This document shows, one piece after another, positions 4,233 through 52,232 of a stretch of 64,000 nucleotides of DNA. The position numbers were made by a program, and so were the translations under genes. The notes under the pieces were generated by a model. The model saw only the letters and a list, made by a program, of their open reading frames with translations, had not been told where the DNA came from and searched no databases. The first letter of the stretch is position 1, and the number at the start of each line of letters is the position of its first letter. Source of the stretch: Prevotella sp. (GTDB taxonomy: Bacteria > Bacteroidota > Bacteroidia > Bacteroidales > Bacteroidaceae); contig JAFUFJ010000007.1 of assembly GCA_017469955.1 (NCBI GenBank), forward strand, positions 62,001 through 126,000. Direction: 5' to 3'.

Positions 4233-4342
4233 TGAGAAAGCTAAGCATTCAGCCTCAAAAGTCTTAGGATTCTGACCGAGAAAGCTATGAGTTCTGGCCA
4301 TGAAAGCTATGAGTTCTCACCCTGAAAGGATAGCTTTCTCAG
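4233..4342. repeat. 110-bp five-module repeat, copy 1
   Basis: Five consecutive 22-bp modules (4233, 4255, 4277, 4299, 4321) each carry a GAAAG-type word at the same phase. Modules 3 and 4 share GAAAGCTATGAGTTCT. The block opens with TGAGAAAGCT and closes with AGCTTTCTCAG, so its ends are inverted copies. It lies after dacB and before the terminator of a convergent gene. No coding sequence fits. Confidence 0.85.
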
Positions 4343-4393
4343 GCCGATGTCACGGCGTGATGGCACAGAAGTGGAAGGAGTGCACACAGAAAA

Positions 4394-4434
4394 CGCCCGC
4401 CTTGCCGGTCTGAAAGACCTTGGCAAGGCGGGCG
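4394..4434 (-). terminator. Rho-independent terminator of the small barrel gene
   Basis: Perfect 13-bp stem, CGCCCGCCTTGCC at 4394-4406 and its complement at 4422-4434, with a 15-nt loop. On the minus strand it is followed by TTTTC, as expected downstream of the gene ending at 4468. Confidence 0.85.
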
Positions 4435-4467
4435 AAACGTATGGGAAGCCCCCGGGAGGGCTGCTCT

Positions 4468-5109
4468 TTAGAAGTTTACACCGAAGTTGACGGTGAAGGC
4501 ATGTCCGTGGGCTGTCACGTTGTCGGCATTGGCAATATTGGCAATACCGAACTTGTAGGCCAGCTCGAGATAGAGGTTGTTGTACTCTGCACCGCAGCCA
4601 ACTTTGATGCCCATGTCAGGATGCTTGTAGTAACCGTCGTTGAACGAGCTGTGCTTGGTCACCACTTCAGCACCGCCTGCACTGACGGTTTCCTTCGTCT
4701 TTCCTCCGATAGCCCAAGAAAAATACGGACCAATCAGGGGCATCACGCTCACGCCGTCTGTCACAGGAATGCCATACTTGATGAGCACAGGAATCTCCAA
4801 ATAGTTCAGCGAAACATCATATTTTGCAGTAGCTCCGCCAACCTTCACGTCGCCTTTACCACCGCGTTGTGTGAAATAAAGACCACTCTCAAGGAACACA
4901 GGCGTGGTATCAGAGACGCGCAAGCCGATGACTCCTGCCAGCGTAAGGCCGGCCTTGGTGTCAAGATCGGTGATGCCTGCAGCAGAGAGACCCAGACGGG
5001 CTCCGTAATAGAGGCGTGACTGGTCGAACGAAAAACTGCCGCTGCTTGTCTGAGCAAACGATGTAGCAGCCATCATAAGGGCTGCAATTGCCATAAGAAT
5101 CTTTTTCAT
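4468..5109 (-). CDS. Small outer-membrane beta-barrel protein (porin-family, PorT-like)
   Basis: A 213-residue protein with a clear signal peptide (MKKILMAIAALMMAATSFAQ). It then shows alternating beta-strand sequence (YYGARLGLSAAGI, VFLESGLYFTQRG, YLEIPVLIKYGI) and ends in an aromatic-terminated strand, VNFGVNF. The LEIPVLIKY segment is typical of the outer-membrane beta-barrel type-2/PorT-like family of Bacteroidetes. The longer open frame starts at 5163, but 5109 is chosen because the signal peptide begins there. It is a single gene with its own terminator. The function is unknown; it is presumably a structural or adhesion-related barrel. Confidence 0.8.
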   Translation of the reverse strand: MKKILMAIAALMMAATSFAQTSSGSFSFDQSRLYYGARLGLSAAGITDLDTKAGLTLAGVIGLRVSDTTPVFLESGLYFTQRGGKGDVKVGGATAKYDVSLNYLEIPVLIKYGIPVTDGVSVMPLIGPYFSWAIGGKTKETVSAGGAEVVTKHSSFNDGYYKHPDMGIKVGCGAEYNNLYLELAYKFGIANIANADNVTAHGHAFTVNFGVNF

Positions 5110-5265
5110 AATCGTGTTGTTATTTGTTAAGACAATCTTCCTTTTTGCGCTGCAAAGAAACACTTTTTTTCGGATATGGCAAAAAAAATGACCAAAAAAG
5201 TAAGAAAAGCCTTATGTTTTTGTGACATTGCGGACGCTTTTGTTCGCAATCTGACAAATTATTCG

Positions 5266-5273
5266 TACTTTTG
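5266..5273 (+). promoter_or_regulatory. Bacteroidetes -7 promoter element for mutY
   Basis: TACTTTTG matches TAnnTTTG and lies 21 nt before the mutY start. A good -33 TTTG at the usual spacing is not obvious. Confidence 0.5.
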
Positions 5274-5294
5274 AAAGCCAAAAGAAACAGCATC

Positions 5295-6323
5295 ATGAGC
5301 AACACTCTTACGCCTTTTGCATCAACGGTCATGGACTGGTTTCAGCAAAACGGGCGCGACTTGCCTTGGCGAGCCACGCGCGATCCCTATGCCGTCTGGC
5401 TCAGCGAGGTCATCCTCCAGCAGACAAGGGTTGAACAGGGACGGCCCTACTGGCTGCGGTTCATGGAGCGATGGCCGAGGGTTGAACTGCTTGCCGAGGC
5501 CGAAGAAGACGAAGTGATGCGCATGTGGCAGGGCTTAGGCTACTATAGTCGTGCGCGCAACCTGCACGAAGCTGCACGGCAGGTGGCTGCCATGGGACGC
5601 TTTCCCGACAGCTATGATGCCCTGCGCAGGCTGAAAGGCGTGGGAGACTACACGGCTGCGGCAGTGGCTTCGATAGCCTTTGACGAGCCCGTGGCTGTGG
5701 TCGACGGCAATGTATACCGCGTGCTGTCGCGCTATTTCGGCATCGACGTGCCCGTCAACAGCGCCGAGGGCCGGCGGGTGTTCAAGGCGCTCGCCCAGTC
5801 TCATCTGCCCGAAAAGGCTGCCTCGGCATACAATCAGGCACTGATGGACTTTGGTGCATTGCAGTGTACTCCCCAGTCGCCGGCCTGCAACGAATGCCCT
5901 TTGGCGCCGTCGTGCGATGCCTTGCGCACGGGAAGGGTAGACATGCTGCCCGTAAAGGAAAAACGACTGAAGGTGAAACAGCGCCACCTGTCCTACGTAT
6001 ATATAAGGTGGCAGGGCAAGACGGCTATGAGAAAACGCCCTTCAGGCGACATCTGGCAAGGATTGTGGGAACCCTTTCTGGCAGAAGATGACGGCGGACG
6101 TGAACAGGGATACGGGCTTCCGGCAGGCGCAAAGCTCGTGAAGAAGGGAGTAAAGCATGTGCTGACCCACCGCATTTTGCTGGCCGATTTCTACCTCTGG
6201 GAGCCCGAATCCGAACCGCGACTGTCCGAGGAATACAAGTGGATAGCAGAATCTCAGATTGACAACTATGGCGTTCCGCGCCTCGTAGAGCTGTTGCTGC
6301 AGAGCATTTCGGAGGCCGGATAG
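5295..6323 (+). CDS. mutY: A/G-specific adenine DNA glycosylase
   Basis: Removes adenine mispaired with 8-oxoguanine or guanine in base-excision repair. The 342-residue protein has the HhH-GPD fold: catalytic Glu38 in WLSEVILQQT, the helix-hairpin-helix LKGVGDYTAAAV and catalytic Asp137 in VVDGNVYRV. The 4Fe-4S ligands are C191-X6-C198-X2-C201-X5-C207. A C-terminal NUDIX-like domain (from about residue 225) reads 8-oxoG. The start at MSNTLTPF (5295) is preferred over 5271 because the upstream -7 element at 5266 would place the longer start at or before the transcript start. A bidirectional terminator follows. Confidence 0.95.
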   Translation: MSNTLTPFASTVMDWFQQNGRDLPWRATRDPYAVWLSEVILQQTRVEQGRPYWLRFMERWPRVELLAEAEEDEVMRMWQGLGYYSRARNLHEAARQVAAMGRFPDSYDALRRLKGVGDYTAAAVASIAFDEPVAVVDGNVYRVLSRYFGIDVPVNSAEGRRVFKALAQSHLPEKAASAYNQALMDFGALQCTPQSPACNECPLAPSCDALRTGRVDMLPVKEKRLKVKQRHLSYVYIRWQGKTAMRKRPSGDIWQGLWEPFLAEDDGGREQGYGLPAGAKLVKKGVKHVLTHRILLADFYLWEPESEPRLSEEYKWIAESQIDNYGVPRLVELLLQSISEAG

Positions 6324-6353
6324 CCACAGCAGACAACACGATGATGAAGAAAA

Positions 6354-6397
6354 AAGCGACGCAGAAAAAGGCCGTCTCGCCTTCATCTGCGTCGCTT
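6354..6397. terminator. Bidirectional terminator between mutY and the nuclease gene
   Basis: Perfect 12-bp stem AAGCGACGCAGA (6354-6365) with complement at 6386-6397. It is flanked by A-rich sequence on the left and TCTCTTT on the right, so it can serve both convergent genes. Confidence 0.8.
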
Positions 6398-6421
6398 CTC
6401 TTTGAAGTGAAAGCCAGTTGG

Positions 6422-7402
6422 CTACAGTTTTTTCTGGAAATCTTCGACTTTCCATGCATTGAGCACTTTCTCGCGGTCGAGCGATTCGACAGCATTCTCA
6501 ATGTCGTCGGGCAGGTTGCAGAAGAAGTCGATGCCCGTAAGACGCTCCAACTCGTCGATATTCACCACGTAGGGGCGAAGGTCTTTCGTCGAGCTCGACT
6601 GGTGCTGAATCCAGAATCCCAAAGCCTTGTAGCCCCCGTTTCCCGGGTCTTGATTCTTGCAAAGCAATGCCATGAAGAAGTATTTCGGAACCGGTATCTT
6701 GTTGCGCCCTGAGCCTAAATATCGGATGATGTTGGCATTGTCGTCAATAGTTCCGCCCTTGACGACGTAGAGTGTGTCGCGGAAATTGTTGTTATTCCAT
6801 TCGCGGACAATCTTTTCCATGTTTGCCCATACATAGCCGTTGAAACCATTAACCTGAGGTTGCATGTTGGTCATGTAGAAAGTCTGTGTGTTGGCCTGGC
6901 TGTTATAGGAGTAGGCACGGTCGGCAGAAGGGATGATGTGCCCGTGGTCGTAGCCCGATCCGCTGTAGGGATCTGCCGTAAAGTGATATTGGCTGTCAAG
7001 ATCCGGGTCGTTGGGGTATTCAGTAAACGGCCCGTTATAGTTGCGGGGCTTCCGGTCTGTGGCATTGCTCGTGTTGCCGGGGTGCATCTGATAGCACGAC
7101 CAGCGTTGCGAACGCAGAGAGCCTTCCTCGTTCCAGCCTGTGGGATGAAGGTCAGTGTCCCACTCAACGCAGTAGTTTACACCGAACGATGCCCGATGGA
7201 CAATGACAATGTTGTTGGCACCGCCTTTCAGCTTCGGAAACTCCAATCGCCCGTAGACGGAGTTGGCCCTTGTGTCGTTGCGGTTGGTATTGTTGCGCAT
7301 AGTGGTGCGGTTGTCTTCTTCATCGTTGAAGTCAACATCGGTTCCGCATGCCGTCAATGCGAACAAGAAGGCTAAAATAGGGATAAATCTGAATGGCTTC
7401 AT
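6422..7402 (-). CDS. Secreted DNA/RNA non-specific endonuclease (lipoprotein)
   Basis: An extracytoplasmic sugar-non-specific nuclease of the NUC1/EndA beta-beta-alpha-metal family (326 residues). The start MKPFRFIPILAFLFALTACG gives a lipobox cysteine at residue 19, so surface or periplasmic anchoring is likely. The metal-site motif is GYDHGHIIPSADR; the family usual is DRGH, so this is a DHGH variant with the catalytic His kept. The NMQPQVNGFNGYVWANME block supplies the Asn that holds the metal. It sits close to a nucleic-acid/phosphoester uptake-like cluster. The longer open frame from 7459 lacks a signal peptide at its start. Confidence 0.88.
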   Translation of the reverse strand: MKPFRFIPILAFLFALTACGTDVDFNDEEDNRTTMRNNTNRNDTRANSVYGRLEFPKLKGGANNIVIVHRASFGVNYCVEWDTDLHPTGWNEEGSLRSQRWSCYQMHPGNTSNATDRKPRNYNGPFTEYPNDPDLDSQYHFTADPYSGSGYDHGHIIPSADRAYSYNSQANTQTFYMTNMQPQVNGFNGYVWANMEKIVREWNNNNFRDTLYVVKGGTIDDNANIIRYLGSGRNKIPVPKYFFMALLCKNQDPGNGGYKALGFWIQHQSSSTKDLRPYVVNIDELERLTGIDFFCNLPDDIENAVESLDREKVLNAWKVEDFQKKL

Positions 7403-7512
7403 GTCTTGAATAAATAAAGAGATGCGACCGACCGCATATGCAACTACGTTCGAACGCACCTCTCCGAAAAATTAATCTCTATATCGACTGTAAAAGATAG
7501 TCAAGCAACGAA

Positions 7513-7764
7513 TTACTTCTTAATCTTACCGTAGCGGCTCATGAAGCGGTCAACACGACCGGCTGTGTCAACGAGCGTGCTCTTACCCGTATAGAATGGG
7601 TGAGAGGTGTTAGAGATTTCAACTTTTACCACTGGGTAAGTTTCGCCTTCAAATTCCACTGTCTCATTGGTCTTTGCTGTGGACTTTGTAAGGAACATAT
7701 CGCCGTTGGACATGTCACGGAACACGACGGGGCGATAGTTTTCTGGATGAATACCTTTTTTCAT
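7513..7764 (-). CDS. rpmE2: 50S ribosomal protein L31, type B
   Basis: An 83-residue ribosomal protein beginning [15 protein letters not shown], the typical start of type B L31, and containing [25 protein letters not shown] split over its core. It lacks the CxxC zinc pair of type A, so it is the zinc-independent form. The longer frame upstream (to 7836) is not conserved-looking and overlaps a promoter-like site. It is a single gene. Confidence 0.95.
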
Positions 7765-7808
7765 TGTTTTTATTCTTATGATTAATAATGTGATTGTTCT
7801 CTTGATTG

Positions 7809-7816
7809 CAAAAATA
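7809..7816 (-). promoter_or_regulatory. Likely -7 element for rpmE2
   Basis: On the minus strand the site reads TATTTTTG (TAnnTTTG), 45 nt upstream of the L31 start. A second match, TAATTTTG, lies at 7850-7857, so two start sites are possible. Confidence 0.45.
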
Positions 7817-7915
7817 GCACGATGTGACACGTACATACTAAGCAGGGTGCAAAATTACAAAGAATTCTGCACCCTGCCAAATATTTCGGAAATTATTTTC
7901 CCTTGATCGGAGATT

Positions 7916-9910
7916 TTATTCGCTGTAGGTGATGACCAATGTGGCAAAACGCAATTGGCTGGCTGCACCTGACGATCCGTTGCTGTTGGTGATGGTGACC
8001 GCACCGCTGTTGATTCCCGTTACGTTCACGGCTGCACCGTCGAAAGCTACCGTGCCTGGCTGTGCACCAACTTCTTCACTTGCGTTGCAGAGTGTGCCCG
8101 ACTGCTCGGTGCAGTTCAGCGTGACACTGCTGATGGTCTTGCCGTTGGCAGTGATGGTAAGGCTGTTCTTGGGGTACATACGGAGGCTGGCACCAGTGGT
8201 ATAATACTTTGGTGTGTTGCTGTTTCCGCCACCGTCAAATGTTATCTTGGTACCGTCAACGAGGTTGATGGTGCCGGGTTCCTTGCCATTGTCTACGCCA
8301 AGATCGGCAGCAGTCAGAGTGAGCACGTTACCGTTCAGTACGCCAAAGGTGCCGTTGCCTGGCTGTGGATCGGGGTTGCCGTTACCACCTTCGCTGATCT
8401 TGCCGCCTTGCTTGACCAAGAGAGGCAGACCATCGCCACTGTTAGTGGGGCAGAGCTCGGTGTATTTGCTGACATACTGGATGGATTTCCCGGTACCTAC
8501 GTTCTTCACTGTGGCTGTTCCGTTGCTGCTGATGAAAGCACTCCATACGTAGTTGCCGCTACCCTGCGTGGCGGATACCTGGAAACTGTTGTGAGAGTCG
8601 TCCATATAGAGGTACTGACCTTGTGCATCTTGCAGGGTGAAGCCTCCTTCTACGGCCGTAAAGGTGAAGAGGTCTGCCTCATCTCCAGTTAGCGTTCCGT
8701 CCTCGGCGATAGTCGTACTATTCTTCGTGGGATACATATATCCGTAGCTATTGCCATTGAAAGGCTGGTAGTTGTATACTTCGTAATTGGTGGAAGCCTT
8801 GTATACGAAGAAATATTTGCCAGCCTCGAGGTTCGACTCGTCGGGCTGTGGATTAGGCGTATCTCCACCACCAGCAGTGTAGCTGGCCAAATAACTATCA
8901 GTGATTTCAGGAACGACGGCGTTAGTGCTTTTGTTGATGAATTTGTAGAGGGTACCGTATACCACTACTTCGTCGCCGGCCTTAATGTCAGTAATGGAGG
9001 TAAACTTGGCTCCGTTGAGTCCATCGCCGGCATATACTTGCACTTGGTTGGTGGCAGTACCATCGTCGGAGATGTAATAGTTGAGGTTCCCATATTTGGC
9101 AAAGTTGTCGGCGTTAGTAGTGACCTTGACTATCTTGCCCTTCACGTATGCCTTCTCTGTACTCTTGCCACCCTCGTCAAGGGCATTGATGAGCTCTATG
9201 GCCTTGGCAGTAGTGATGGGGGCGTCCTTCGTGCCGATGGTGTTACCGTCGTCTGGGTTTTCATTGCCATTGTCACCAGTAGCAATGCCTTCTTCTATCT
9301 TGAAGTTCTCCAGTTCCCATGTGGTGGAGGCTGTTGCGGGAGCTTTAAACCAGAAGCCGATGTAGACCTTCTCTGCATTGGTCATGGACTCGGGTAACTG
9401 AATCTCTCCCGATGTGTAGAGTGTCCAGTCGTTATAGGGTGAAGCTACAGGCTTGAAAGCCAGTTCTACCCATGTGGCGGTGTTGACATCTGTTCCATTG
9501 AAGTCGTTGGAAGCATACACCTTGTGGTTGGCTTCCCAACCGCTGACATTGTTGGTGTACCTGATGGTGTTGTCGAATGAGATCTTTACGTTCTCATAGC
9601 CTGTAGTAACAAAAGCGGGAGAAATGAGCCATCCCTCTACAGCTTGGTTCGACTTCGAACTGGCACCGCCCCATGCCTGATAGCCTGTGGCCTGTGTGTA
9701 GGTAGAGCCTTGGCTCCATGGCTGGCCCTCAGTGATGCTGACGAGGCTCCAGCCGTCGCTGAGGTTGCTCGAGGTGTAGGGTAGCGAGCCTTCGCTCTGT
9801 TCTCCGCCTCCTGTTCCAGGGATAGTGTAGGGCTCGGGGACGTCTTCACAACTGGTGAATGCAAATGCGGCAATGGCTATCGCCAGCATTGATTTAATTA
9901 CTTTTTTCAT
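7916..9910 (-). CDS. Surface lipoprotein with jelly-roll and OB-fold-like domains
   Basis: A 664-residue lipoprotein (lipobox AFTSCEDVPEP, Cys20). Residues about 45-205 resemble a choice-of-anchor-J type jelly-roll (SLPYTSSNLSDGWSL, WGGASSKSNQAVEGWLISPAF). A linker then leads to an OB-fold-like region at about 225-345 (APITTAKAIELINAL, AYVKGKIVKVTT, GDEVVVYGTLYKF). The C-terminal half is Gly/Thr-rich beta structure with a second lectin-like repeat. It follows a DUF5689 lipoprotein and a TonB-receptor-like barrel on the same strand, 44 and 59 nt apart in effect, so it is the last gene of that operon. OB-folds point towards nucleic-acid binding, but that is inference. Confidence 0.75.
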   Translation of the reverse strand: MKKVIKSMLAIAIAAFAFTSCEDVPEPYTIPGTGGGEQSEGSLPYTSSNLSDGWSLVSITEGQPWSQGSTYTQATGYQAWGGASSKSNQAVEGWLISPAFVTTGYENVKISFDNTIRYTNNVSGWEANHKVYASNDFNGTDVNTATWVELAFKPVASPYNDWTLYTSGEIQLPESMTNAEKVYIGFWFKAPATASTTWELENFKIEEGIATGDNGNENPDDGNTIGTKDAPITTAKAIELINALDEGGKSTEKAYVKGKIVKVTTNADNFAKYGNLNYYISDDGTATNQVQVYAGDGLNGAKFTSITDIKAGDEVVVYGTLYKFINKSTNAVVPEITDSYLASYTAGGGDTPNPQPDESNLEAGKYFFVYKASTNYEVYNYQPFNGNSYGYMYPTKNSTTIAEDGTLTGDEADLFTFTAVEGGFTLQDAQGQYLYMDDSHNSFQVSATQGSGNYVWSAFISSNGTATVKNVGTGKSIQYVSKYTELCPTNSGDGLPLLVKQGGKISEGGNGNPDPQPGNGTFGVLNGNVLTLTAADLGVDNGKEPGTINLVDGTKITFDGGGNSNTPKYYTTGASLRMYPKNSLTITANGKTISSVTLNCTEQSGTLCNASEEVGAQPGTVAFDGAAVNVTGINSGAVTITNSNGSSGAASQLRFATLVITYSE

Positions 9911-9954
9911 AATATATTTCGTTTTTTATTATTCAAATAACGTGGATAAATGTA

Positions 9955-10824
9955 TTAGTTGATGACTTCTAAGTCACTGGTCTTGCGGATGAGTATCTGC
10001 CAAGTGTTTCCATACCTAGAGGCCACACCTGTAATGTTGCAAGTTTTTTTCTTTCCTGTTTCAGTATCGAATGGAAGTACGGAGGCTGCAAAGTCGGCAT
10101 ACGAGCTGGTGCGTACGACAAGCTTATTAGAGGTGTATCCGTCAATGGTCTGATGGTAGTAGTTGGAACCTGATAGTGTTCCGTTGATGAGTGTGTTTTT
10201 GCCGTCGGCATTGGTAAAAGTGACTCCTTTCAATGTGACGAGTTTGCCACAATTGGTGGCTATGTCGTCCTCTACGTCTTTGAAGTCCACGGGTTCTACG
10301 GTTGTCGGCTGTCCAATGAGTTTGAAATGCTGGTTCCAGATGTCTTTTGACATACGCCCAATACGGGTAGTCTGATAGGGAGCTCCAATCTCAGGTTGGT
10401 AACCATAGTTGCCCACATAGAGACCCTTCAGGTCGATGATGAGTTCCTGTCCTTCGCCAAGATAGCCACAAAGGCCGCCTTGATTGACTGCGATGATCAT
10501 GGCTCCCGTCTCGTCTTGAACAGCAAACTGCTTGTACAGATTCCCACCAATATCGTTGCCTGTCACACGGACACGCAGTTTGATATCGTCGGTTATCAGT
10601 ATGTTGCTGTGCTGTTGTGTGAAGACGGCCTTATAGGTGGGGTGTGCCTTCAGTTCGGCGATGGTGATGATGCCATCCTCAGTGATAGTGTTGTTGCCGA
10701 AGGGAGCCTCGGAGAGCGACGGGTCTTTCCAGTCATCGTTGAAAAGAGAATCGTCGCCGTCAAGACAAGAGGTCAGCGCGAAGCATGTCGCTGCTGCCAT
10801 AAAGAAATATTTAATAGCTTTCAT
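9955..10824 (-). CDS. DUF5689-type surface lipoprotein
   Basis: A 289-residue lipoprotein (ALTSCLDGDD, Cys20). The body contains ITIAELKAHP, the phrase KLRVRVTGNDIGGNLYKQF and a repeated OB-like strand pattern ending in ITGVASRYGNTWQILIRKTSD. These are features I associate with DUF5689/OB-fold lipoproteins that accompany TonB-dependent receptors in Bacteroidetes. It starts 15 nt after the stop of the receptor gene, so the two are almost certainly co-transcribed and probably form an outer-membrane uptake complex. The ligand is unknown; nucleic acid or a nucleotide is a guess from context. Confidence 0.75.
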   Translation of the reverse strand: MKAIKYFFMAAATCFALTSCLDGDDSLFNDDWKDPSLSEAPFGNNTITEDGIITIAELKAHPTYKAVFTQQHSNILITDDIKLRVRVTGNDIGGNLYKQFAVQDETGAMIIAVNQGGLCGYLGEGQELIIDLKGLYVGNYGYQPEIGAPYQTTRIGRMSKDIWNQHFKLIGQPTTVEPVDFKDVEDDIATNCGKLVTLKGVTFTNADGKNTLINGTLSGSNYYHQTIDGYTSNKLVVRTSSYADFAASVLPFDTETGKKKTCNITGVASRYGNTWQILIRKTSDLEVIN

Positions 10825-10839
10825 AACTGTTTTGCTGTT

Positions 10840-13371: not shown

Positions 13372-13540
13372 GTGTAAAAAATTAATGATTGTTTGTTCTT
13401 ATGGTGCAAAGTAACGAATAATTTTTCAAAAAGCAGACATTTTTTAGCGTTTTTTTCTCAAAAGATGCTTTTATGTCGGATTTAATTCCGATATTTGCAC
13501 TTGGAAAGACTTTGTCAGATTATAATACATTATTATATAT

Positions 13541-43276: not shown

Positions 43277-44502
43277 AGCTTAAAGGCTTTGAGTATGTTG
43301 TCCATCATTGTGTTGTAGCGCGAAAGGTAGTCGTCGGCAAATGCTTTTACCTTCTTTTTATCATAAGATTGTAGCTTGTCGAATACCTCTGTAGGGGTAG
43401 GTAGCGGACAGTTCTTTCTCAGACATGATACGCGATAGTCTCCCATGTCGGCCTCAGTGAGGATATGTTTGATTTTACTGGAGGCGTCACTTGTTACTAA
43501 TCCGTTGAGGTGGGTCGTGCCATATGTGTCGAAACAAAAGAAGGGAACTTGGTTATGCAGTGAAACAATGATAGGGTGCATATTGTTTCCAATGTAGGCA
43601 CTAGAGTGTTTGATGAGAGCATACCACTCCATAGCGTTAAGTGGAAGAGGAATTTCTTTGCTGAGCGAACCGAAACTTTTTCCGTGAGAAAATGGCAATG
43701 TCATACAGATATAGCCATGCTGGGTAGCGATATTTTCGAATTCTTCCAGCCATTCTTGAGTGACGGACTGGCGATAGTAGTCAAGAAGACTCACAAGAAT
43801 ATACTTCTCTGGAAGCTGAAATTTTTCTCTTATCTCGCTAAGGGTCGGAAGTTGGGATATGGCATTCTGGTTGAATGCAAATACAGGATCGGGGGTGATG
43901 TCAGGAATGCACTGTCCATCAGACAGGTATTCCATCATGTCTCGCGTCCAACTATCGCGAACAGAGAGGTAGGAATATTGGGCAATGCTGTGCTTCATTG
44001 CCCTTTTTGTTTTGTTTGGGATGAAGCGAAATGCCGAGTCCTGATTGGCAACTGACATCACTGCAACAGGAATAGGCTGGCTGAGCATACCGTTCCATAC
44101 GCCCCAATATGGGTTTGGGTACATGGCATCTGAGGTGTAATGGCGCATGGCTATGATCTTTTTGCAGGGGAAAACCAGACGCTCGGCCCATGGATGATGC
44201 TGGGCAACAGCATCACTTCCGATGATGACAGCTTCAATATTTTCTTTTTCGATGACGGATGCTACCTCTTCGACCGTACGGCAAAGTTCGGTTTCTATCC
44301 ATAGTTCTTTGCGAACTGTCAACTGTCTCTCGAATTGTTCTTTTGGTGTTTGTGAGGCATAATGCTCCTCTAAATCGGCAGGTATCCAATTGATGACAAT
44401 CGGGTAGTGTCCTTTTTTTATGAGATATACATAAGTAGAGAACAACTGAAGAGTTGCTCCGAAGTTACATGCGGAGTGATATGCCAACAGACCTATTTTC
44501 AT
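43273..44502 (-). CDS. Polysaccharide pyruvyl transferase family protein
   Basis: A 409-residue protein beginning KIGLLAYHSACNFGATLQLFSTY, the typical start of the CsaB/WcaK-type pyruvyl transferase family. Later it has AVIIGSDAVAQHHPW, LSVRDSWTRDMMEYL and YIGNNMHPIIVSL. The family adds ketal-linked pyruvate to sugars from phosphoenolpyruvate, making the polymer acidic. It overlaps both neighbours by 4 nt. The acceptor sugar is not predictable. Confidence 0.88.
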   Translation of the reverse strand: MKIGLLAYHSACNFGATLQLFSTYVYLIKKGHYPIVINWIPADLEEHYASQTPKEQFERQLTVRKELWIETELCRTVEEVASVIEKENIEAVIIGSDAVAQHHPWAERLVFPCKKIIAMRHYTSDAMYPNPYWGVWNGMLSQPIPVAVMSVANQDSAFRFIPNKTKRAMKHSIAQYSYLSVRDSWTRDMMEYLSDGQCIPDITPDPVFAFNQNAISQLPTLSEIREKFQLPEKYILVSLLDYYRQSVTQEWLEEFENIATQHGYICMTLPFSHGKSFGSLSKEIPLPLNAMEWYALIKHSSAYIGNNMHPIIVSLHNQVPFFCFDTYGTTHLNGLVTSDASSKIKHILTEADMGDYRVSCLRKNCPLPTPTEVFDKLQSYDKKKVKAFADDYLSRYNTMMDNILKAFKL

Positions 44503-45065
44503 ATAATATGCATGTTCGTAAATGGAACGTATTCAAGATTCCTTTCGGTTCTCTCGCCAATCTTTTTGGCAGGAATGCCTCCAACCACACAAAACGGCTC
44601 AACGTCTTTCGTGACGACTGCACCAGAAGCGACGACTGCACCATGGCCAATTGTTACGCCAGGCAGGATAATGGCGCGCGAACATATCCAGGCATAGTCT
44701 TCTATCGTGACCTTATCGCCGACTCCGTGAAAGTCTTTTGAATTCATTTCATGATGAAGACTCCATATGATGGCTTCATAAGCGATGGTGACATTGCGTC
44801 CAATGGTTAGTCCTTTGCGGGCATCGAGCAGGACTTTTGGCCCGATACTCGTTCCCTCACCGATATGTAAATCCTTGGGTGAGCGGATGTCAACAGAGGA
44901 AAACATGGCAACATTTCTTTCTATGTCAGCCCCCATCATGCGCAGAAGAATGCGCCTTAGATGGCGTGAAGGAGTATGGCGGACAATCCATATTTTCAGG
45001 TATTCGAAGGATAATTGCCAGTCCCAATATGATGTTTTAAGTATTTTCTTTATTTTCTTGAGCAT
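44499..45065 (-). CDS. Hexapeptide-repeat acyltransferase (WcaF/LacA-like)
   Basis: A 188-residue left-handed beta-helix O-acetyltransferase, probably using acetyl-CoA. Hexapeptide repeats are visible from about residue 70 (IGEGTSIGPKVLLDARKGLTIGRN) through DYAWICSRAIILPGVTIGHGAVVASGAVV to the end VVGGIPAKKIG. The region GAVVTKDVEPFCVVGG is typical. It would decorate the polysaccharide repeat unit. Its start overlaps the end of the flippase gene by 16 nt. Confidence 0.88.
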   Translation of the reverse strand: MLKKIKKILKTSYWDWQLSFEYLKIWIVRHTPSRHLRRILLRMMGADIERNVAMFSSVDIRSPKDLHIGEGTSIGPKVLLDARKGLTIGRNVTIAYEAIIWSLHHEMNSKDFHGVGDKVTIEDYAWICSRAIILPGVTIGHGAVVASGAVVTKDVEPFCVVGGIPAKKIGERTERNLEYVPFTNMHII

Positions 45066-46570
45066 AATTTCATGACAATTTTTAGAATGACTTGTCTTTC
45101 TCCTTCAGAAAGTACATATCGGTATGACAAGAAACCGAAGATGATTACATCAGAAAAGCCCACAATCAATAATCGGATAAATGACGAAGGCATGACCTGC
45201 GTGATACCGAAAAGCAGTAGGCCTGTGAGAATGATGAGTACCATTGGAGGAAGAATAGTCTTGCCAATGTAGTCGTAAATGAAAACGCCAACCAGTTTCC
45301 TTGCGAAGAGCAGACGTGCCGTAATGGCAATAACCTCAGTAATGCAGGCTGCCCATATTGCCCATGACGGAGAAAGTCCGACCGACAATGCCAGATGGGA
45401 CAATGGAATTGTAGATAGCAGGATGATGCATATGGTAATGGTGTACCACTTTATCTTGCCTGTAGACTGTATAGCAGACATCAGTCCCGTTGAGGCTTGC
45501 ATGATAAGAGCCAGCGTAATGATGGCACGAGTAAACTCGATGGTGTAGCGTGGAACTTCCGAAAGCCAGAGTTTAAGGATATAAGGCATTTCGACAATCA
45601 GTGGCAATGCAATGACTCCAAGGCTGAGAATAGAAAACTTTGTAAGTCCATAGGACATCGTAATGAGCCGGCTTCTCTCTTTGCTGCCTTCGCTTTGCAT
45701 CAGTTGGGGGTTTACGCTCTTTTGAATCGTCGAAGAGAAGTAGCTTAAAACACCATTCACATTGTTGGCAACATTATAAGCTGCATTCATTACGGTGTCA
45801 AAGAATCTGTTCAATACGATGTTGATACCTTGGCTGCGTCCCACCATGGCCAGTGCGGCCAAGGCATTCCATCCCGCATAGCTGAACATCTCTTTGAAGA
45901 GCGTATGATTACGGCAGGCATCCTTGTCGGGATAGAGTTTTGTGTATTTCTTGCGGGTATATATCCATTTCGATGTTAAAATGACGAAGGTCACGATAGT
46001 CAAAGCCAGTCCGTAAAACCCCAAACAGTCATACGCTACATAAGGCAATAGCAGGGCAACGCTCAGCCGTAATACCGATTCGATAATGCCAAAAATCGAG
46101 AAAGCCAGCATGTTCTCGTATGCGTTCAGAATGGCATCAAATGGAACAGTCAACACGGTGAATACCATATTGACGACCAGGAAATGGAATAAAAGTGTTG
46201 CGGTATCCAACCGCCCTTCGTCGATATTCAGATAATCTGTCAGCCAGGGAATCAGCAATTCTGTGGAAACCGCGATGATGAAGGCCAACAGTATATGCAG
46301 AATGAGGCTGATGTTGTATACTTCCAATAGTTTTATGTCATTGCCTTCACCCATTGTTACCGAGAGATAGCGTTGGGTTGATATGGTCATCGATGCATTC
46401 ATGAACGAAAGCATTGATATGACTCCTGCGATAAGACCATACAAGCCAAAGTCACTCTTGCCTAATGCGTCGAGCACCAAGGGCACTGTATATAGCGAGA
46501 TGGCCATGCATATTAGTATCTTCGCATACAGAATGACGGAATTGGCTATGATCTTATTCGTTGAGTGCAT
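45050..46570 (-). CDS. Wzx-type polysaccharide flippase
   Basis: A 506-residue integral membrane protein with about 14 helices (for example ILICMAISLYTVPLVLDALG and FGLYGLIAGVISMLSFMNASM at the N-terminus). It belongs to the MOP/PST exporter superfamily. It would move undecaprenyl-linked repeat units to the periplasmic side. The N-terminal TISTQRYLSVTMGEG pattern is common in Bacteroidetes O-antigen exporters. It overlaps the polymerase gene by 17 nt and the acetyltransferase gene by 16 nt. Confidence 0.88.
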   Translation of the reverse strand: MHSTNKIIANSVILYAKILICMAISLYTVPLVLDALGKSDFGLYGLIAGVISMLSFMNASMTISTQRYLSVTMGEGNDIKLLEVYNISLILHILLAFIIAVSTELLIPWLTDYLNIDEGRLDTATLLFHFLVVNMVFTVLTVPFDAILNAYENMLAFSIFGIIESVLRLSVALLLPYVAYDCLGFYGLALTIVTFVILTSKWIYTRKKYTKLYPDKDACRNHTLFKEMFSYAGWNALAALAMVGRSQGINIVLNRFFDTVMNAAYNVANNVNGVLSYFSSTIQKSVNPQLMQSEGSKERSRLITMSYGLTKFSILSLGVIALPLIVEMPYILKLWLSEVPRYTIEFTRAIITLALIMQASTGLMSAIQSTGKIKWYTITICIILLSTIPLSHLALSVGLSPSWAIWAACITEVIAITARLLFARKLVGVFIYDYIGKTILPPMVLIILTGLLLFGITQVMPSSFIRLLIVGFSDVIIFGFLSYRYVLSEGERQVILKIVMKLCSRK

Positions 46571-47762
46571 TTGTCTCTTGCGGTATCAGTAGATATTTAT
46601 TGCGTTTGAAGTTGCCGATGCAATAGCCTACGGTAAGCATGACAACGTTCATCCAATAGTAGATGGCAATGTGAGAAATCATTGACAGTACGAACATAAT
46701 GCTTGTCAGCATTGCCATTGAAGGGGCATATTCAGATTTTTCGCGAAGCATTTTTACCACATAGTAGCATAGGGAAATGAATGCGGAAAGGTAGAGTGTA
46801 ATGCCAATAATGCCGTAGTCATAGGTGATTTCGAGGAAATCGTTGTGAGCAGAAAGGTTAATTGGCGAGTTCTGCACGACCGCATTATAGCCATGACCGA
46901 AAAGCAACGAGCTGAGATCCGAATCCTCTATCATCTTCGCTGTGATGGCCCAAACAACAGTTCGGCCACTTCCATTGTCGTTACCGATGTTTTCAAACCG
47001 CTCGAAAAGAGTCTCTTCACCCATGTTTCCCAGCATGATGATGACAAAAGCAAACAGGGCTCCGATGATTAGACCGGCAAGAATCGAAGATGGCTTGATG
47101 CGGTTTGTGACGAATTGCATGCTGACGACATAGGTGATCAGCCCCAGAACCAACGCTACGATACCGGCTCTTTTGAAACTGATGAGAATCATGATCAAGA
47201 CCAGAAGCGACAAAGTCAGGCGTAGAGTCTTCGACTTGCAGAGCATCATCAGCGGGAGTATGTAGAGCAAATAGTAGGAGGAAATGAGGTGTGACTCTTC
47301 GGCAATGGCATTGAAGTTGAAAAATATCTTGAAGTATTGCCGTGTACAGATTGCCCCAATGGCAAGAAACATGATCAGGAACCATCGGTTATGGCCGTAG
47401 TTTCGTGCTATGTTATAGCTGAGCAGCAGCACAAGCAAAGGCATCCATGCCCCGATGATGTTGAAGGTAAGGCTGTCTCCAGAACGTGTTGTCAAGATTG
47501 TCGTGGGAATAATGACCCAGAAAAAGTAGGCAAGAAAGGCTGTTACGGTGAACGGAGGCTTGTAGAAATTCACGCCGGGCAGCATAAATATGGCTACGGC
47601 TCCGCCCCATAACATGAATGTTAAGGCAATGACATAGCGACCCAAACCAACGTCAAGGTAGCCGCCTTCCATCATTATCATGTTATATCCGCAGCATTCT
47701 GCCAGCAGGAAGATAAGGAAGCAGAAGAAAAACTTGACTATGTTTTCAATTGACAACTGCAT
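46554..47762 (-). CDS. Wzy-like polysaccharide polymerase
   Basis: A 402-residue membrane protein with about 11 helices and a large periplasmic loop (SSLLFGHGYNAVVQNSPINLSAHNDFLEI). The G-H-G-x-N and H-N-x-(F/Y)-L-E motif is the usual mark of O-antigen ligase/polymerase (Wzy_C) proteins. It would join repeat units in the periplasm. Start MQLSIENI at 47762 is preferred; the longer frame reaches back 39 nt further into wzz. It overlaps the Wzz-type gene by 17 nt. Confidence 0.85.
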   Translation of the reverse strand: MQLSIENIVKFFFCFLIFLLAECCGYNMIMMEGGYLDVGLGRYVIALTFMLWGGAVAIFMLPGVNFYKPPFTVTAFLAYFFWVIIPTTILTTRSGDSLTFNIIGAWMPLLVLLLSYNIARNYGHNRWFLIMFLAIGAICTRQYFKIFFNFNAIAEESHLISSYYLLYILPLMMLCKSKTLRLTLSLLVLIMILISFKRAGIVALVLGLITYVVSMQFVTNRIKPSSILAGLIIGALFAFVIIMLGNMGEETLFERFENIGNDNGSGRTVVWAITAKMIEDSDLSSLLFGHGYNAVVQNSPINLSAHNDFLEITYDYGIIGITLYLSAFISLCYYVVKMLREKSEYAPSMAMLTSIMFVLSMISHIAIYYWMNVVMLTVGYCIGNFKRNKYLLIPQETNALNE

Positions 47763-48792
47763 TCTTGTCTTTGTATATGATGCGCATGCCGTCGATGCCA
47801 AAGGCGAGCATGAGCATCATCAGTACGAAAATCATTCGTTTCGGACCGGCAGGTTTGATCGGCACGGCAGCACCTTTCAGCAGAGTAAAGGCCGGGGTGC
47901 GTTGCTGAAGTTTTGCCTGCGCAGCCTGCAACTGGTTGTTCATGGTGCTGTAGGTGTTGTATTTCAGCTGCATGTCGTTTTCCAAGTCGTCGCTTTTTGA
48001 CCTCACACTGATGAGAGAGGCGTCGGTATGTGAGTCGGCATATCCAGCATAAAGCCTTCGTGCCTGTTCATAGTCGGCGTGCGATTCTTTGACGAGTTTC
48101 TTGTAGTATTCAACGTCAATACGTGCTTTGTTCGTCCGGTAGTCAGTGATGAACGATTGCAGTTTGAGACGTATCGAGTCGGCTACAGTGGCACAAATGC
48201 GCTTGTCCTGGTCAGTCACGTTGATTGTGATGAGGCTTGTCTTTCGGTCAATAGAGCAATTGATGTTGTTGGCAATCATGTTGACAATGTTCTGTTGCAT
48301 CTTGTTGAGATGCAAAGGATCGATTTCTCCCTTTCCTGCCACTTCTCCTTTCTTGGTGAACAGACGCTTGATCTTTGCAATAACCTTTGTCCACCATGCG
48401 TGTTTCTGGTGCTTGGCCATGTAGGTGAAGTAGTCGGTTTTCAAGGTTCCTTCCTCATTTTCCACAGTCATCGGAAACAGTTGTACGATGAAGTCGTTGG
48501 TCTGCAGTAGTTCAGGATAGAGTTCAGGAGAAATGGCATCGGTGGTGGCCATGCTTCCTATGTCGAATCCGAACGATGATGCAAGGCTTCCTATTGCACC
48601 GTCGGCCAGCGAGTTGTCAAGCTCTGGCGCGAGCTTTATTTCCGAACGGTAGTAGCGGGGGATGCAGACGATGAACGCACTGGCAAGGATGAAGGTCGTT
48701 CCCAGCACCTTGCAAAAGTGGAGTTTCTTCGAGAAGAGCAGCTTGAAGATGTGTCCAAGGTCGATGACCTCTGTGTTTTTTGTCTCAGCCAT
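47746..48792 (-). CDS. Wzz-type chain-length regulator
   Basis: A 348-residue inner-membrane protein with a helix near each end (CKVLGTTFILASAFIVCI and PKRMIFVLMMLMLAFGIDGMRII). Between them lies a periplasmic helical domain (about 60-310). The proline-rich box before the second helix reads AAVPIKPAGPKRMIF, typical of Wzz/PCP proteins. No tyrosine-kinase (BY-kinase) domain is fused, and none is seen in the window. It sets polymer length together with the export protein whose gene lies 44 nt upstream. Confidence 0.9.
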   Translation of the reverse strand: MAETKNTEVIDLGHIFKLLFSKKLHFCKVLGTTFILASAFIVCIPRYYRSEIKLAPELDNSLADGAIGSLASSFGFDIGSMATTDAISPELYPELLQTNDFIVQLFPMTVENEEGTLKTDYFTYMAKHQKHAWWTKVIAKIKRLFTKKGEVAGKGEIDPLHLNKMQQNIVNMIANNINCSIDRKTSLITINVTDQDKRICATVADSIRLKLQSFITDYRTNKARIDVEYYKKLVKESHADYEQARRLYAGYADSHTDASLISVRSKSDDLENDMQLKYNTYSTMNNQLQAAQAKLQQRTPAFTLLKGAAVPIKPAGPKRMIFVLMMLMLAFGIDGMRIIYKDKNAVVN

Positions 48793-48836
48793 ATTAGTAT
48801 GTTTTAGGACTTTATGCTGTTGTTTTCAGGTTTTGC

Positions 48837-51407
48837 TTACAGGATGATGTTGGCAATGGTTGCGATGATGGCGGCAAACGAGCCTGCCGATGTGGCCATA
48901 CTCATTCTTTCGGCGGTCGTCATCTTGGCTACTGACTTGGCCGGAACTACGATTTCACAACCAGGCATCACCTTGGCGCTGTGGCCAACCTTCGACACCA
49001 TGCCGTTCATGTATATGATATATGTCTGGCTTTTCTTAGCCTTGCTGGAGAATCCGCCGGCCTGGTCAATGTAGTAGTTGACGCCTTTCCCCTTCACGTA
49101 GCCCACGGTGTTGGGGTAGAGCACTTCGCCGTTAATCTTGACTGTAGCCTCATACTGTGGGACGATGAGCCTGTCGCCTTCTCTCAACACGATGTCGTCG
49201 TTGCTGCCAGGGTTGTTGAGAGCCTTGTCAAGTTCGATACCTACGGGGTAGGAGTCTCCGATTTCATATTTCTTCATCTGCTGGCTTGAGCTGAGTGTCG
49301 ACATGTTGATGTTGCCCATTCGCGAGGCTTGTTCCTGCAAGTTGGTCTCCATCTCTTCGAGTGCCTTTTTCTTTGCAGCCTCGGCACGCAGTCGTTCTTC
49401 CTGAGTATATTTGCGTTCAAGGCGCGCACCGCTCACGAAAGCACGGTCGTTTACACCGCCGGCTTCTCTGATGAGGTCGCTCAGTCTCATGTTCTTTCGT
49501 GAGAGAGTATAGGTGCCACTGAACATAACCTCACCCTCAACGCTCACGTTTTGCTGCTTGTAGTATCCAGGGCTCTGGCGCACGTAGACCTCATCGAAGG
49601 GCATGAGTGTGAAGCCTGGTTCGCCGTCAATCACAAACCCCTCCTTCAGGGCGAAGGTGTAGGTGCGGGCAATCACGGTGTCTGTAGTGAGGGCTTGCGG
49701 GTTCATGATGCGTCGCGACACGTCGACTTTCACGGTCGAAGCGGTCTCTTTCAGTCCGCCTGCCTGCAGGATGAAGTCTTCAATGGTTTCGTCGTCGGCA
49801 TATTTATAGATGCCGGGATATTGCACTTCGCCGTGGATGGTGATGGTCTGGTCCTGCATCATCTCCTGCTTGGTGGGTATGAACAGCACGTCATTGGGCT
49901 GAAGGGCGATGTCGGGGCTGTCGCCTTTCATGATGCCGTCGACGTCAACAGGTATTACTTTCAGTGTTCTGTCTTCCTTCATGCGGTGCATTACGGCGTG
50001 GGCAGTGAAGGCTTCTTCAGTGACACCCTCAGCAGCCTCGAGCAGTGCTCTCACGCTGGCGATGTTGCCTCCTACCTGATACATGCCAGGACGGAACACT
50101 GCGCCCTTCAGTTCGACCATGTTTTCGAAGCGTTCAAGTATGGAGTCGACGCTGACAGAGTCTCCGTCGGCTACGTGGAACGAGCCCATGTCGAACTCTC
50201 CGACGTTGTAAACAGAGTATTCTCGACCAGTCTTCCTGACCACCCTGACCGACTTTTTGTAGGCGTCTCCTGTGAATCCTCCGGCAAAGTCGATAAGGGA
50301 GCCGATGCTTTCGTCGCGCTTCATCTCATAGAACATGGGGCGTTTGACCTTACCAGTGATGTTGACAAGGCAGTCATATGTCCCTACAACTATCTGATCA
50401 TTGTCAGCCAGGCGGATGTCACCTGAAAGTTTTCCGTTGAGCAAATAGTCGTAGACGTCGACGGTAGAGATGAGTCTGCCGTTGCGATAGACCTTGATGT
50501 TGCGCAAGGTTCCCAGCTCGCTTGGTCCGCCAGCCATGTATAATGCGTTGTAGACTGTCGAGAAGGCCGACAGCGTGTAGGTGCCTGGTACCACGACATC
50601 GCCTGCCACGTTGACCAGAATGGTGCGGGTTTGTCCGACCGACAGTTTCACTTGCGACCCGCCATAGCGTGCTCCGAGCTTCGAACGGAGCCTTGCGTTG
50701 GCCTGGTCGACGGTGAGTCCTGCCACTGTTATGGGACCTACGCCTTCGATGACGATTTCGCCGTCGGGCGAGATGGTGGCGTCAAGCGACTTCTGTGAGG
50801 CGCCATAGATGTCGACGATCACGGCATCTCCTGGTCCTAACAGGTAGTCTTTAGGCGTGGCGATGTTCATGTTGGGCTCGAAAGTGAGGTTCTGAATGTT
50901 GAACAGGTCGTGTCCGAACACTTTTCTTTTCTCCTTGTTCTGCTCGTCAAGTATCTGTTCAAGCCATGCAATAGAGTCAACGGGCATGATGCCGTCCATC
51001 GACTCTAACATCATCATGTATTCGTCATCATCCTCGTCATAGGTGTGGCGCTTGGTCTTCGGCTTCTGCATCCGCTGGCTCGACAGGTTGCCGTTAGGGT
51101 CGGTTTTCTCCTGCGAGTTGTTCTGGCGCAGGCGGTCTTCGCCGTTCTGCACGCCGAATTCTTCGTCAGCTGTGCCAAGTCCCTGCTGCTTTTGCAGGCG
51201 CTCCATCTTCTTGCGCACTCGTTGAACTTGCTGGATATCGATGCCACGCTGCAGCAGGCGGGTGGCAATTTCCTGTTGTGTACGTCCTGCTTCATGTTCT
51301 TTCAGGATGTAGCTCATGACCTGCTCGTCGGTCATAGTCGAGTTCTGGGCTGAGGCTGCCAGCGGACAGATGACGGCGATGAGCATACAGATGATAAGTC
51401 GTTTCAT
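48837..51407 (-). CDS. Polysaccharide export outer-membrane protein with multiple SLBB domains
   Basis: An 856-residue exporter, first gene of the locus. Signal peptide MKRLIICMLIAVICPLAASAQ. A helical, acidic stretch with Gln/Lys repeats follows (about 25-150). The poly_export domain begins at YLLGPGDAVIVDIYGASQKS. At least five SLBB-like repeats follow (VVVPGTYTLSAFSTVYNALYMAGG; VKRPMFYEMKRDES; VFRPGMYQVGG; VQYPGIYKYADDETIEDFILQAGG; VLYPNTVGYVKGKGVNYYIDQAGG, given by their core words). The C-terminus is one hydrophobic helix (AGSFAAIIATIANIIL). This is much larger than E. coli Wza (about 380 residues) but usual for Bacteroidetes. Confidence 0.92.
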   Translation of the reverse strand: MKRLIICMLIAVICPLAASAQNSTMTDEQVMSYILKEHEAGRTQQEIATRLLQRGIDIQQVQRVRKKMERLQKQQGLGTADEEFGVQNGEDRLRQNNSQEKTDPNGNLSSQRMQKPKTKRHTYDEDDDEYMMMLESMDGIMPVDSIAWLEQILDEQNKEKRKVFGHDLFNIQNLTFEPNMNIATPKDYLLGPGDAVIVDIYGASQKSLDATISPDGEIVIEGVGPITVAGLTVDQANARLRSKLGARYGGSQVKLSVGQTRTILVNVAGDVVVPGTYTLSAFSTVYNALYMAGGPSELGTLRNIKVYRNGRLISTVDVYDYLLNGKLSGDIRLADNDQIVVGTYDCLVNITGKVKRPMFYEMKRDESIGSLIDFAGGFTGDAYKKSVRVVRKTGREYSVYNVGEFDMGSFHVADGDSVSVDSILERFENMVELKGAVFRPGMYQVGGNIASVRALLEAAEGVTEEAFTAHAVMHRMKEDRTLKVIPVDVDGIMKGDSPDIALQPNDVLFIPTKQEMMQDQTITIHGEVQYPGIYKYADDETIEDFILQAGGLKETASTVKVDVSRRIMNPQALTTDTVIARTYTFALKEGFVIDGEPGFTLMPFDEVYVRQSPGYYKQQNVSVEGEVMFSGTYTLSRKNMRLSDLIREAGGVNDRAFVSGARLERKYTQEERLRAEAAKKKALEEMETNLQEQASRMGNINMSTLSSSQQMKKYEIGDSYPVGIELDKALNNPGSNDDIVLREGDRLIVPQYEATVKINGEVLYPNTVGYVKGKGVNYYIDQAGGFSSKAKKSQTYIIYMNGMVSKVGHSAKVMPGCEIVVPAKSVAKMTTAERMSMATSAGSFAAIIATIANIIL

Positions 51408-51510
51408 ATTGTTTGATTTATTGTTTTCTGTTAGTTTCTAACCTTGTTCCGTAGCTCCCCTTCTCGAAAGGGGTTATATAACATATAACTCGTTTTTTGC
51501 GAAATTGTTG

Positions 51511-51518
51511 CAAAGGTA
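51511..51518 (-). promoter_or_regulatory. -7 element of the polysaccharide operon promoter
   Basis: Minus-strand TACCTTTG (TAnnTTTG) about 100 nt upstream of the export gene start. The leader has no clear hairpin array. Confidence 0.5.
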
Positions 51519-52232
51519 GTCAATTTTCTTCGAAAAAAAGCATATTTCCATGGACAAATTGCACAAAATCTTCTCTTTGTGCAGCAGAGGGCATGCCGTT
51601 CTCTCTGTTGTCTGTATGAAACCGTGCCGAAATAATTGTAAGATAAAAATCATAATTTTAACACTTGATTTTCAAAAAAAGGAGACTTGCGAGGGACTTA
51701 TGATAGCTAAAAGGTGATGGTTTTACGCCTTTCTTGGTGACAAAATCGGCAACTCAGGTTGAGAAAGGATAGCTTTCTCGGCCACATTGCTCAGGGTTGT
51801 ATGGTTGAAAGGACATGGTTTTGATGCAGAAGGCTATCCTTTCTCGTTGATTTTCATATCCTTTCTCGTTTTGTTCTATAATGTTGAAATGCGTTTTCTG
51901 AATGCTGTCTTGACAACATCGCTGTAGCTTGTTGATATTCAACGGTTTCTGCTCAGAGCGTAAAAAATGGGAGTTTCTTTGGAAAATCTCTCCGTTGACG
52001 GTTTGAAAGGGAAGAAGGATTGTTTATTGTAAAATAAATTCAAAATATTTAACAATTCAAATATTGCCCGATTTTGCTGCATTTTGGAAGCGCTTCCTGC
52101 CTGCCTGCTCTGAAAAAACACGGGAAAAGATTTGGCCTTCTCGTAAATAATTGCTTACTTTGCAGGTGGAATGCCGTCGGCCTTCGGGGCGCCTGTTCCG
52201 TGAATGTACCATCGAAAAAATTACAATATGCT
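51519..52232. other. Divergent intergenic region between the polysaccharide operon and the phosphoesterase gene
   Basis: AT-rich and without a convincing gene. It contains the fifth 110-bp repeat (51760-51869) and, near 52154-52161, TTACTTTG, a near match to the -7 element, for the phosphoesterase gene. Nothing else is recognised. Confidence 0.6.
51760..51869. repeat. 110-bp five-module repeat, copy 5
   Basis: Five 22-bp modules (51760, 51782, 51804, 51826, 51848), the most divergent copy. Module 1 is a self-inverse GAGAAAGGATAGCTTTCTC-like word. Modules 4 and 5 both end TATCCTTTCTCGT, the inverse of GAGAAAGGATA. Opens TGAGAAAGG, closes CCTTTCTCG. It lies between divergent genes. Confidence 0.8.

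Follow-up and report, generated by a model that had tools for sequence, protein, structure and literature searches.

REP/BIME elements, with their RAYT transposases, are palindromic, extragenic repeats of high copy number located near 3' ends. The nearest described relative of the elements analyzed here is PINSR of Prevotella intermedia, which in the available text is a 188-bp intergenic sequence without terminal inverted repeats, present in 177 copies in one strain and 184 in another, and P. falsenii was PINSR-positive by PCR (PMC4755523). The BrickBuilt MITE of Porphyromonas gingivalis, as far as the accessible description goes, is intergenic and built of 23-nt tandem repeats, with 19 copies in one strain; its repeat number varies from 1 to 22.8, and it has leader and tail segments, IS5-type inverted repeats and a different sequence (PMC4596501). 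Bacterial AA/TT periodicity of ~11 bp is strongest at the third codon position (PMC4132750, PMC7537859, PMC3431218); in the available parts of these papers the signals are ~100 bp long (PMC4132750), and fits covered spacings up to ~200 bp, with half-lives explored from 5 to 60 bp (PMC7537859). Both dispersed intergenic repeats and periodicity at 11 bp were known already. In the accessible portions of the periodicity and repeat papers we found no description of a repeat that is helically phase-locked to a kilobase lattice running through genes.

The window, a stretch of 64,000 nucleotides, belongs to a Prevotella genome (G000) that carries a dispersed intergenic family of well over 100 copies; family counts refer to the stretches fetched from this genome, whose assembly is 76% complete. 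The sequence-only reading, which knew of no described family with such a layout, was nearly right, but PINSR is a described relative in sister species. The G000 elements share with PINSR the intergenic position, a copy number well over 100 and occurrence in Prevotella; they differ in length (110 vs. 188 bp), and the PINSR description, in its available text, which was compared as text and not as a consensus, is without 22-bp modules, phase lock or lattice (PMC4755523). P. falsenii (G017) has elements made of 22-bp dyad modules of the same kind, and these are probably PINSR; a G000 element used as BLAST query found no match in G017. Membership in BrickBuilt was rejected, as the elements have a 22-bp unit and five modules, with neither leader nor tail. 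They are like REP/BIME in being palindromic, extragenic, of high copy number and near 3' ends. They differ from them in their 22-bp tandem dyads, and membership in the REP/RAYT class was rejected because the Y1 transposase family (Y1_Tnp, RAYT) gave zero matches in several array-rich genomes, namely G000 (76% complete), G017, G055, G074 and G012; elsewhere in the genus there was one Y1_Tnp match in G006 and two in G010.

The + strand of the window was scanned with a module matrix derived from 133 elements, copies 1-4 among them. The features of the window are as follows:

4233..4342, + strand: element copy 1, five 22-bp dyad modules; lattice phase 5.6 bp, in register
19096..19205, + strand: element copy 2; lattice phase 5.6 bp
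24889..24998, - strand: element copy 3, with 40-bp perfect inverted arms around module 3; lattice phase 6.2 bp
34711..34820, + strand: element copy 4; lattice phase 5.3 bp
51760..51869, no strand given: copy 5, a degenerate or partial array in which modules 1 and 4 fit the family; lattice phase 6.1 bp, in register
1..53600, no strand given: ~11.02-bp AA/TT lattice, mostly visible in 500-bp windows (phase map, spectra)

Five 110-bp blocks, each of five 22-bp modules, had been proposed from the sequence alone. Copies 1-4 bear this out as the best placements in the window, at 4233 (score 113), 19096 (111), 34711 (95) and 24890 (78), whereas copy 5 is degenerate. The proposed coordinates hold for copies 1, 2 and 4, and copy 3 is a minus-strand element with the frame 24889-24998. 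At 51760, copy 5 scored 17.2 (rank 18 of 63,890 placements on the + strand); its modules 1 and 4 reached 27.3 and 18.7, the remaining three were negative, and the profile HMM gave only a weak 58-bp match (E 2e-4 and 5e-4). All five copies, copy 5 included, are in register with the lattice measured outside them, at phases of 5.3-6.2 bp (register = 5.5).

In the fetched stretches there were 135 non-overlapping matches, 133 of them full-length; the two partial ones are copy 5 and a lone module adjoining another element. No full-length copy has an indel (0/133), and every one is a gapless 110-mer of five 22-bp dyads, which extends the proposed common length and phase beyond the window. The mean pairwise identity among the 133 copies is 74% and the highest 94.5%. 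Each element amounts to ten AA/TT steps exactly 11 bp apart, with AA/TT autocorrelation peaks at exactly 11, 22, 33, 44, and 55 bp; the spacing is constant across copies, and the letters vary by short words, eight four-letter words covering 406 of 450 half-sites. Modules are nearly independent of one another between copies, and there is no subfamily structure. The GAGAAAG opening and CTTTCTC closing are near-invariant but not absolute, since each of columns 1-7 and 101-107 shows the same letter in 42 to 45 of the 45 sequences aligned; these ends are inverted, but the internal modules are inverted likewise. An extra AA-N9-TT at module spacing was flagged in 14 flanks, mostly probably by chance; by eye, three or four of the 14 look like a true sixth module.

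The suggestion that all elements are intergenic stands for 132 of the 133 full-length copies; our own ORF predictor placed the remaining one in overlap with a predicted gene whose start is uncertain. Within tandem gaps, 33 copies are in sense and 37 in antisense orientation, i.e., there is no strand preference, and 53 of 70 are nearer the 3' end of a gene. Among gaps of 150-300 bp, 24/29 convergent and 5/22 divergent ones (the lowest class) hold an element, figures of which only the ratios between gap classes are meaningful, as the stretches were chosen for holding elements. Of the 112 gene starts that face an element, only 7 are separated from it by 60 bp or less.

An AA/TT rhythm of ~11.02 bp runs through the surrounding genome, coding DNA included, and keeps its phase for kilobases, with coherence lasting to 2-4 kb; a period of 11.00 was rejected because the sign of the coherence flips near 1.25 kb, and 11.02 is favored. 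In the window the lattice is weak in patches (for example 8.5-10.5, 29-31, and 36-40 kb) and at about 54 to 62.5 kb. Its spacing is that of the published periodicity, and here too the enrichment is carried by synonymous positions. It differs in keeping its phase over kilobases and in being phase-locked to a dispersed repeat, compared with ~100-200 bp in the available parts of the published work. Between 0 and 4 kb from an element, the lattice neither gains nor loses strength. Phase is carried across gaps equally with elements (R 0.74) and without them (R 0.72), and therefore elements are not needed to carry it. The lattice was also found in P. falsenii, P. histicola, and G494; it was not seen at Bacteroides/Mediterranea loci or in an E. 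coli stretch. Over 200 kb, G016 shows the lattice but no arrays of this kind, so that arrays are not the source of the lattice, a possibility that the equal carry-over likewise led us to reject. Eight arrays were found in Bacteroides/Mediterranea, none within a lattice; taken with G016, lattice and arrays are therefore separable. Array count and lattice strength did not correlate at 30 genus loci of ~4 kb each (Spearman 0.08, p 0.69).

AA/TT steps in the flanks and neighboring genes follow the 11-bp grid of the element for 1-3 kb on each side. TT occurs at -8, -30, -52, and -74 with frequencies of 0.36, 0.48, 0.33, and 0.26, and AA at 113, 135, 157, and 179 with 0.35, 0.56, 0.50, and 0.31, against a baseline of 0.09 in both cases; these phased flanks are neither repeat sequence nor conserved. 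At a period of 11.02, coherence with the element center was -0.25 at 60-260 bp, -0.18 at ~1.1 kb and -0.09 at ~2.1 kb, and random centers stayed within 0.02 of zero. The phase of 132 of the 133 elements is within 2 bp of register, and coding DNA alone, 200-900 bp away, gives the register for 131/133 elements vs. 41% of random places. The sequence-only idea that a 22-bp period puts the words on one DNA face, and so invites a binding array for a nucleoid or regulatory protein, finds its geometry supported by the 11-bp autocorrelation, the lack of indels and the phase lock. Element-to-element distances modulo 11 were without signal, apart from p 0.04 in a single one of the seven distance bins; this would be expected if coherence extends over no more than a few kb with a period of 11.02. 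Codon choice follows the same grid: the GAA share of Glu codons swings between 25 and 76% with lattice phase, and nine of ten synonymous codon pairs track phase strongly (GAA/GAG, chi2 807 on 10 df). Synonymous codons also follow phase in P. falsenii, P. histicola, and G494. Other Prevotella species have 22-bp dyad arrays built from different words; their flank phasing is present, weaker and partly confounded by array-end calling, and array phase relative to the lattice has the sign seen in G000 for the arrays of P. falsenii, P. histicola, G494, and G006.

We put at about an even chance the reading that the chromosome is rotationally ordered and that the arrays serve it as DNA-architecture sites in register, recognized by a putative factor. 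The elements would be intergenic, dense in-register versions of a helical lattice running along this chromosome, on which some reader of rotational position may favor A/T steps on one face and have the elements as its strongest anchoring sites. A candidate reader is a nucleoid protein wrapping or coating DNA at ~11 bp per turn, perhaps with 22 bp per dimer; alternatively, supercoil-dependent bending could do the reading, with elements at plectoneme tips. The register of the elements might be held by selection, or insertion might occur in register only. In favor of this reading are the gapless copies, the internal autocorrelation, the phased flanks and coding DNA, the codon choice, the agreement of other species, and the location near 3' ends without strand preference. 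Counted against it are the separability of lattice and arrays, the lack of correlation between array count and lattice strength, the equal carry-over of phase across gaps, the even lattice strength around elements, and the point that phase lock by itself could result if elements inserted into a lattice already present. Genes of the HU-HIG family are present in 40/40 genus genomes and hence do not discriminate as a candidate array binder.

In line with the mobile-repeat alternative of the sequence-only reading, the elements may instead be a non-autonomous PINSR-type dispersed repeat, spread by some copying or insertion process only into sites that share one rotational phase on a chromosome ordered beforehand, which we consider rather unlikely. 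There are integrases that favor one face of wrapped DNA, and an insert of 110 bp, or ten lattice periods, would leave the downstream phase almost undisturbed. High copy number and lineage-specific words agree with such an origin, as does the interruption of synteny between G494 and P. falsenii at several elements. The gap upstream of a sigma-54 activator gene, matched between genomes by that gene alone, shows no clear array in 29 relatives and a partial array in G004. About three quarters of PINSR sites are common to two strains in the available text (PMC4755523). One locus with and without an element in G494 and P. falsenii gave no clean empty site, since the spacer was altered too and no junction could be read. 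Against this origin, 3-5 bp flank matches were not above those of permuted flanks (none in 101/133, permuted mean 98.3), so that target site duplication, a mark of MITEs, is not indicated, and a highest identity of 94.5% means that there are no fresh copies. The lack of indels, the near-independence of modules in place of subfamilies, the lack of RAYT matches in the array-rich genomes named above (G000 being 76% complete) and the phasing of flanks that are not repeat sequence argue in the same direction.

Pure intrinsic curvature, by which phased A/T bends place the elements at plectoneme tips downstream of genes with no specific protein, seems improbable to us. The exact 11-bp phasing and the preference for 3' ends and convergent gaps are consistent with it, and the accessible part of PMC4132750 refers to curved DNA at the apices of plectonemes; the eight-word vocabulary, however, constrains letters other than AA/TT. 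Kilobase coherence also speaks against curvature alone. It calls for a template stiffer than free DNA because the twist of free DNA should lose rotational order well before 1 kb. It is very unlikely that the elements are operator arrays of an ordinary transcription factor controlling adjacent genes: tandem dyads resemble operators, but elements are rarest in divergent gaps and seldom close to facing gene starts. Least credible is a hairpin that stabilizes or ends transcripts at the RNA level. A quasi-palindrome centered on module 3, the location near gene 3' ends and some excess complementarity between modules 1 and 5 would suit it, but pairing between modules 2 and 4 does not exceed what column composition predicts, and no Rfam match at gathering scores was found at the elements. 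A conserved structured RNA was rejected, given a consensus of only -5.1 kcal/mol by RNAalifold (11 pairs, one with a compensatory change) and the absent strand preference.

Returning to the architectural reading, we tentatively propose that some Prevotella chromosomes may hold a fixed rotational register over kilobases in an ~11-bp-per-turn chromatin (22 bp per dimer) written via synonymous codons, with the 110-bp elements as putative anchoring or phasing sites and with genes, gaps and repeats on one helical grid. In these genomes, positional information on DNA rotation is written into the choice among synonymous codons. The purpose of bacterial 11-bp periodicity becomes directly testable, with the arrays as ready-made probes for the putative factor, while sister species that have or lack the lattice offer natural controls.

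The sequence-only reading had grouped five blocks of the window into one family, each with exactly five 22-bp modules. Copies 1-4 proved to be members, and copy 5 (51760-51869) is degenerate. The fixed five-module length was borne out in the fetched stretches of the window's genome (G000; 22 contigs, 2.26 Mb, 76% complete as searched). There, a profile search gave 135 non-overlapping matches, 2 partial and 133 full-length with no indels; the profile could under-score copies with many indels, and none such was seen. BLAST with copy 2 had 40 of 191 first-look candidates scored. A sequence-only covariance model gave 152 matches at roughly 145 distinct places at least, a lower bound because some places match on both strands and 150 of 1519 candidates were scored. 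Mean pairwise identity among copies is 74% (48-95%). Further 22-bp arrays with different words seem to be present in the same genome (C6:39489-39545, C6:203079-203135, C9:53300-53356).

Each module is a dyad of two inverted half-sites, with AA on one side, TT on the other and nine bases between. The core vocabulary is small: eight four-letter words account for 406 of 450 half-site cores in 45 aligned copies. Columns within 5 bp are strongly linked (mutual information 0.057 vs. 0.012) and columns at least 45 bp apart are almost unlinked (mean 0.0140 vs. 0.0122 permuted). Compared by eye, the module cores of two orthologous elements of the genome G494 and P. falsenii differ by entire words.

The AA/TT rhythm continues outside the elements. 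Flanks without conserved sequence carry TT at -8, -30, -52, and -74 and AA at 113, 135, 157, and 179, at frequencies of 0.26-0.56 vs. a baseline of 0.09, and the signal persists to 256 bp, also within coding DNA. With elements masked, 11.0-bp power in the window rises with the length analysed (2.4 for 250 bp, 5.5 for 1 kb, and 9.0 for 4 kb), other non-codon periods staying near 1-1.6; a true period of 11.02 bp makes the lattice phase drift steadily across the whole stretch. In the element-free stretch 54000-62500, adjoining the tmRNA gene (53764-54165), the lattice is weak (Z around 1 in most 500-bp windows); this stretch is possibly acquired DNA.

The elements are locked to this lattice. Coherence with element centres at 11.02 bp started at -0.25 (60-260 bp) and weakened to -0.18 near 1.1 kb and -0.09 near 2.1 kb. 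Random centres stayed within 0.02 of zero, and jittering the element centres by 1-10 bp gave values within 0.03 of zero out to 2.2 kb, with a drift of at most 0.07 in the farthest, thin bins. Flanking DNA 75-900 bp away put 132 of the 133 elements no more than 2 bp off the mean phase (R 0.936; 133/133 under slightly different weighting). Coding DNA alone placed 131 of 133 within 2 bp from 200-900 bp (R 0.900) and 129 from 300-1200 bp (R 0.861), as against 41% in 200 draws of random centres (mean R 0.077, largest 0.236).

Codon choice follows the same phase. For synonymous pairs within 1.5 kb of an element, we scored the A- or T-ending share by lattice phase: GAA swings between 0.25 and 0.76 (n = 6623, chi2 807, 10 df), AAA between 0.19 and 0.57, and CTT between 0.23 and 0.70. 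Chi2 was at least 132 in nine of ten pairs; TTA/TTG showed no phase dependence in this range (chi2 10.1). Lys/Glu/Gln codons behaved likewise against array phase, with chi2 of 53.8 in P. falsenii, 45.1 in P. histicola, and 46.6 in G494. For Bacteroides and Mediterranea pooled, the value for these codons was not clearly different from chance (16.7), and the shape differs.

Of the elements, 130 have a predicted gene on either side; convergent gaps hold 39 of these, tandem gaps 70, and divergent gaps 21. The tandem ones are 33 sense and 37 antisense, 53 of the 70 being nearer the 3' end. Elements occupy 24/29 convergent, 27/52 tandem, and 5/22 divergent gaps of 150-300 bp in stretches chosen for containing elements. 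Intervals between neighbours look random (CV 1.04).

BLAST with copy 2 found the element in one of 40 genomes, its own, and the covariance model at E up to 0.1 matched 26 of 60 genomes of the genus, which is Prevotella in the broad sense. Arrays at inspected genus loci share the 22-bp period and dyads and differ in words, e.g., AAAAGCTATGCTTTT or GAAACC-N3-GGTTTC. An exact three-module AAA-N7-TTT pattern matched 59 of 100 genus genomes (maximum 503 places in one); some genomes match its reversed control as well, since A and T tracts take turns every 11 bp along the array. Phylum-wide, 28 of 395 genomes matched, mostly at 1-2 places and often by AT-rich chance. Matches listed in a named-genome scan were mostly Prevotella and relatives, with some Bacteroides and Mediterranea, and single loci in Treponema, an uncultured Spirochaetales bacterium, a Christensenella-like bacterium, and a Rhizobium record. 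Similar 22-bp AAA-N7-TTT arrays at L186, L211, L221, and L169 (records labelled Rhizobium, Spirochaetales, Treponema, and Christensenella-like bacterium) may reflect chance, transfer or mis-binning. The collinearity of G494 and P. falsenii is interrupted at or close to several elements (locus L284 against L296-L298), which suggests recombination between copies; a 9.86-kb collinear block of the two (MAFFT) has only five gaps, each of 1 bp, at 8.3% divergence (raw count). The HU-HIG family is unusually expanded in the genomes G003, G042, and G018, with up to 30 matches in one genome.

In the accessible text, the nearest described repeat is PINSR of P. intermedia (PMC4755523), and BrickBuilt of Porphyromonas gingivalis (PMC4596501) differs in construction. 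The accessible parts of PMC4132750, PMC7537859, and PMC3431218 describe periodicity over ∼100-200 bp, or measure persistence by the fraction of windows that show a signal, whereas the lattice here is phase-coherent over kilobases. We found no description of such coherence in those parts or in searches of an open-access library.

Spacing within the elements is fixed, their flanks are phased, the lattice is coherent over kilobases, and the elements share its phase. In free DNA, twist fluctuations are expected to wash out rotational order over distances well below a kilobase. A rigid template, either a protein fibre or an ordered supercoil, would underlie all four results. The lattice is not generated by the elements, since the genome of a relative, G016, has it without such arrays, and phase is carried across gaps without need of elements. 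On the best reading, the elements mark where the grid reaches its highest density; those in register may have been retained by selection or have arrived by insertion in phase.
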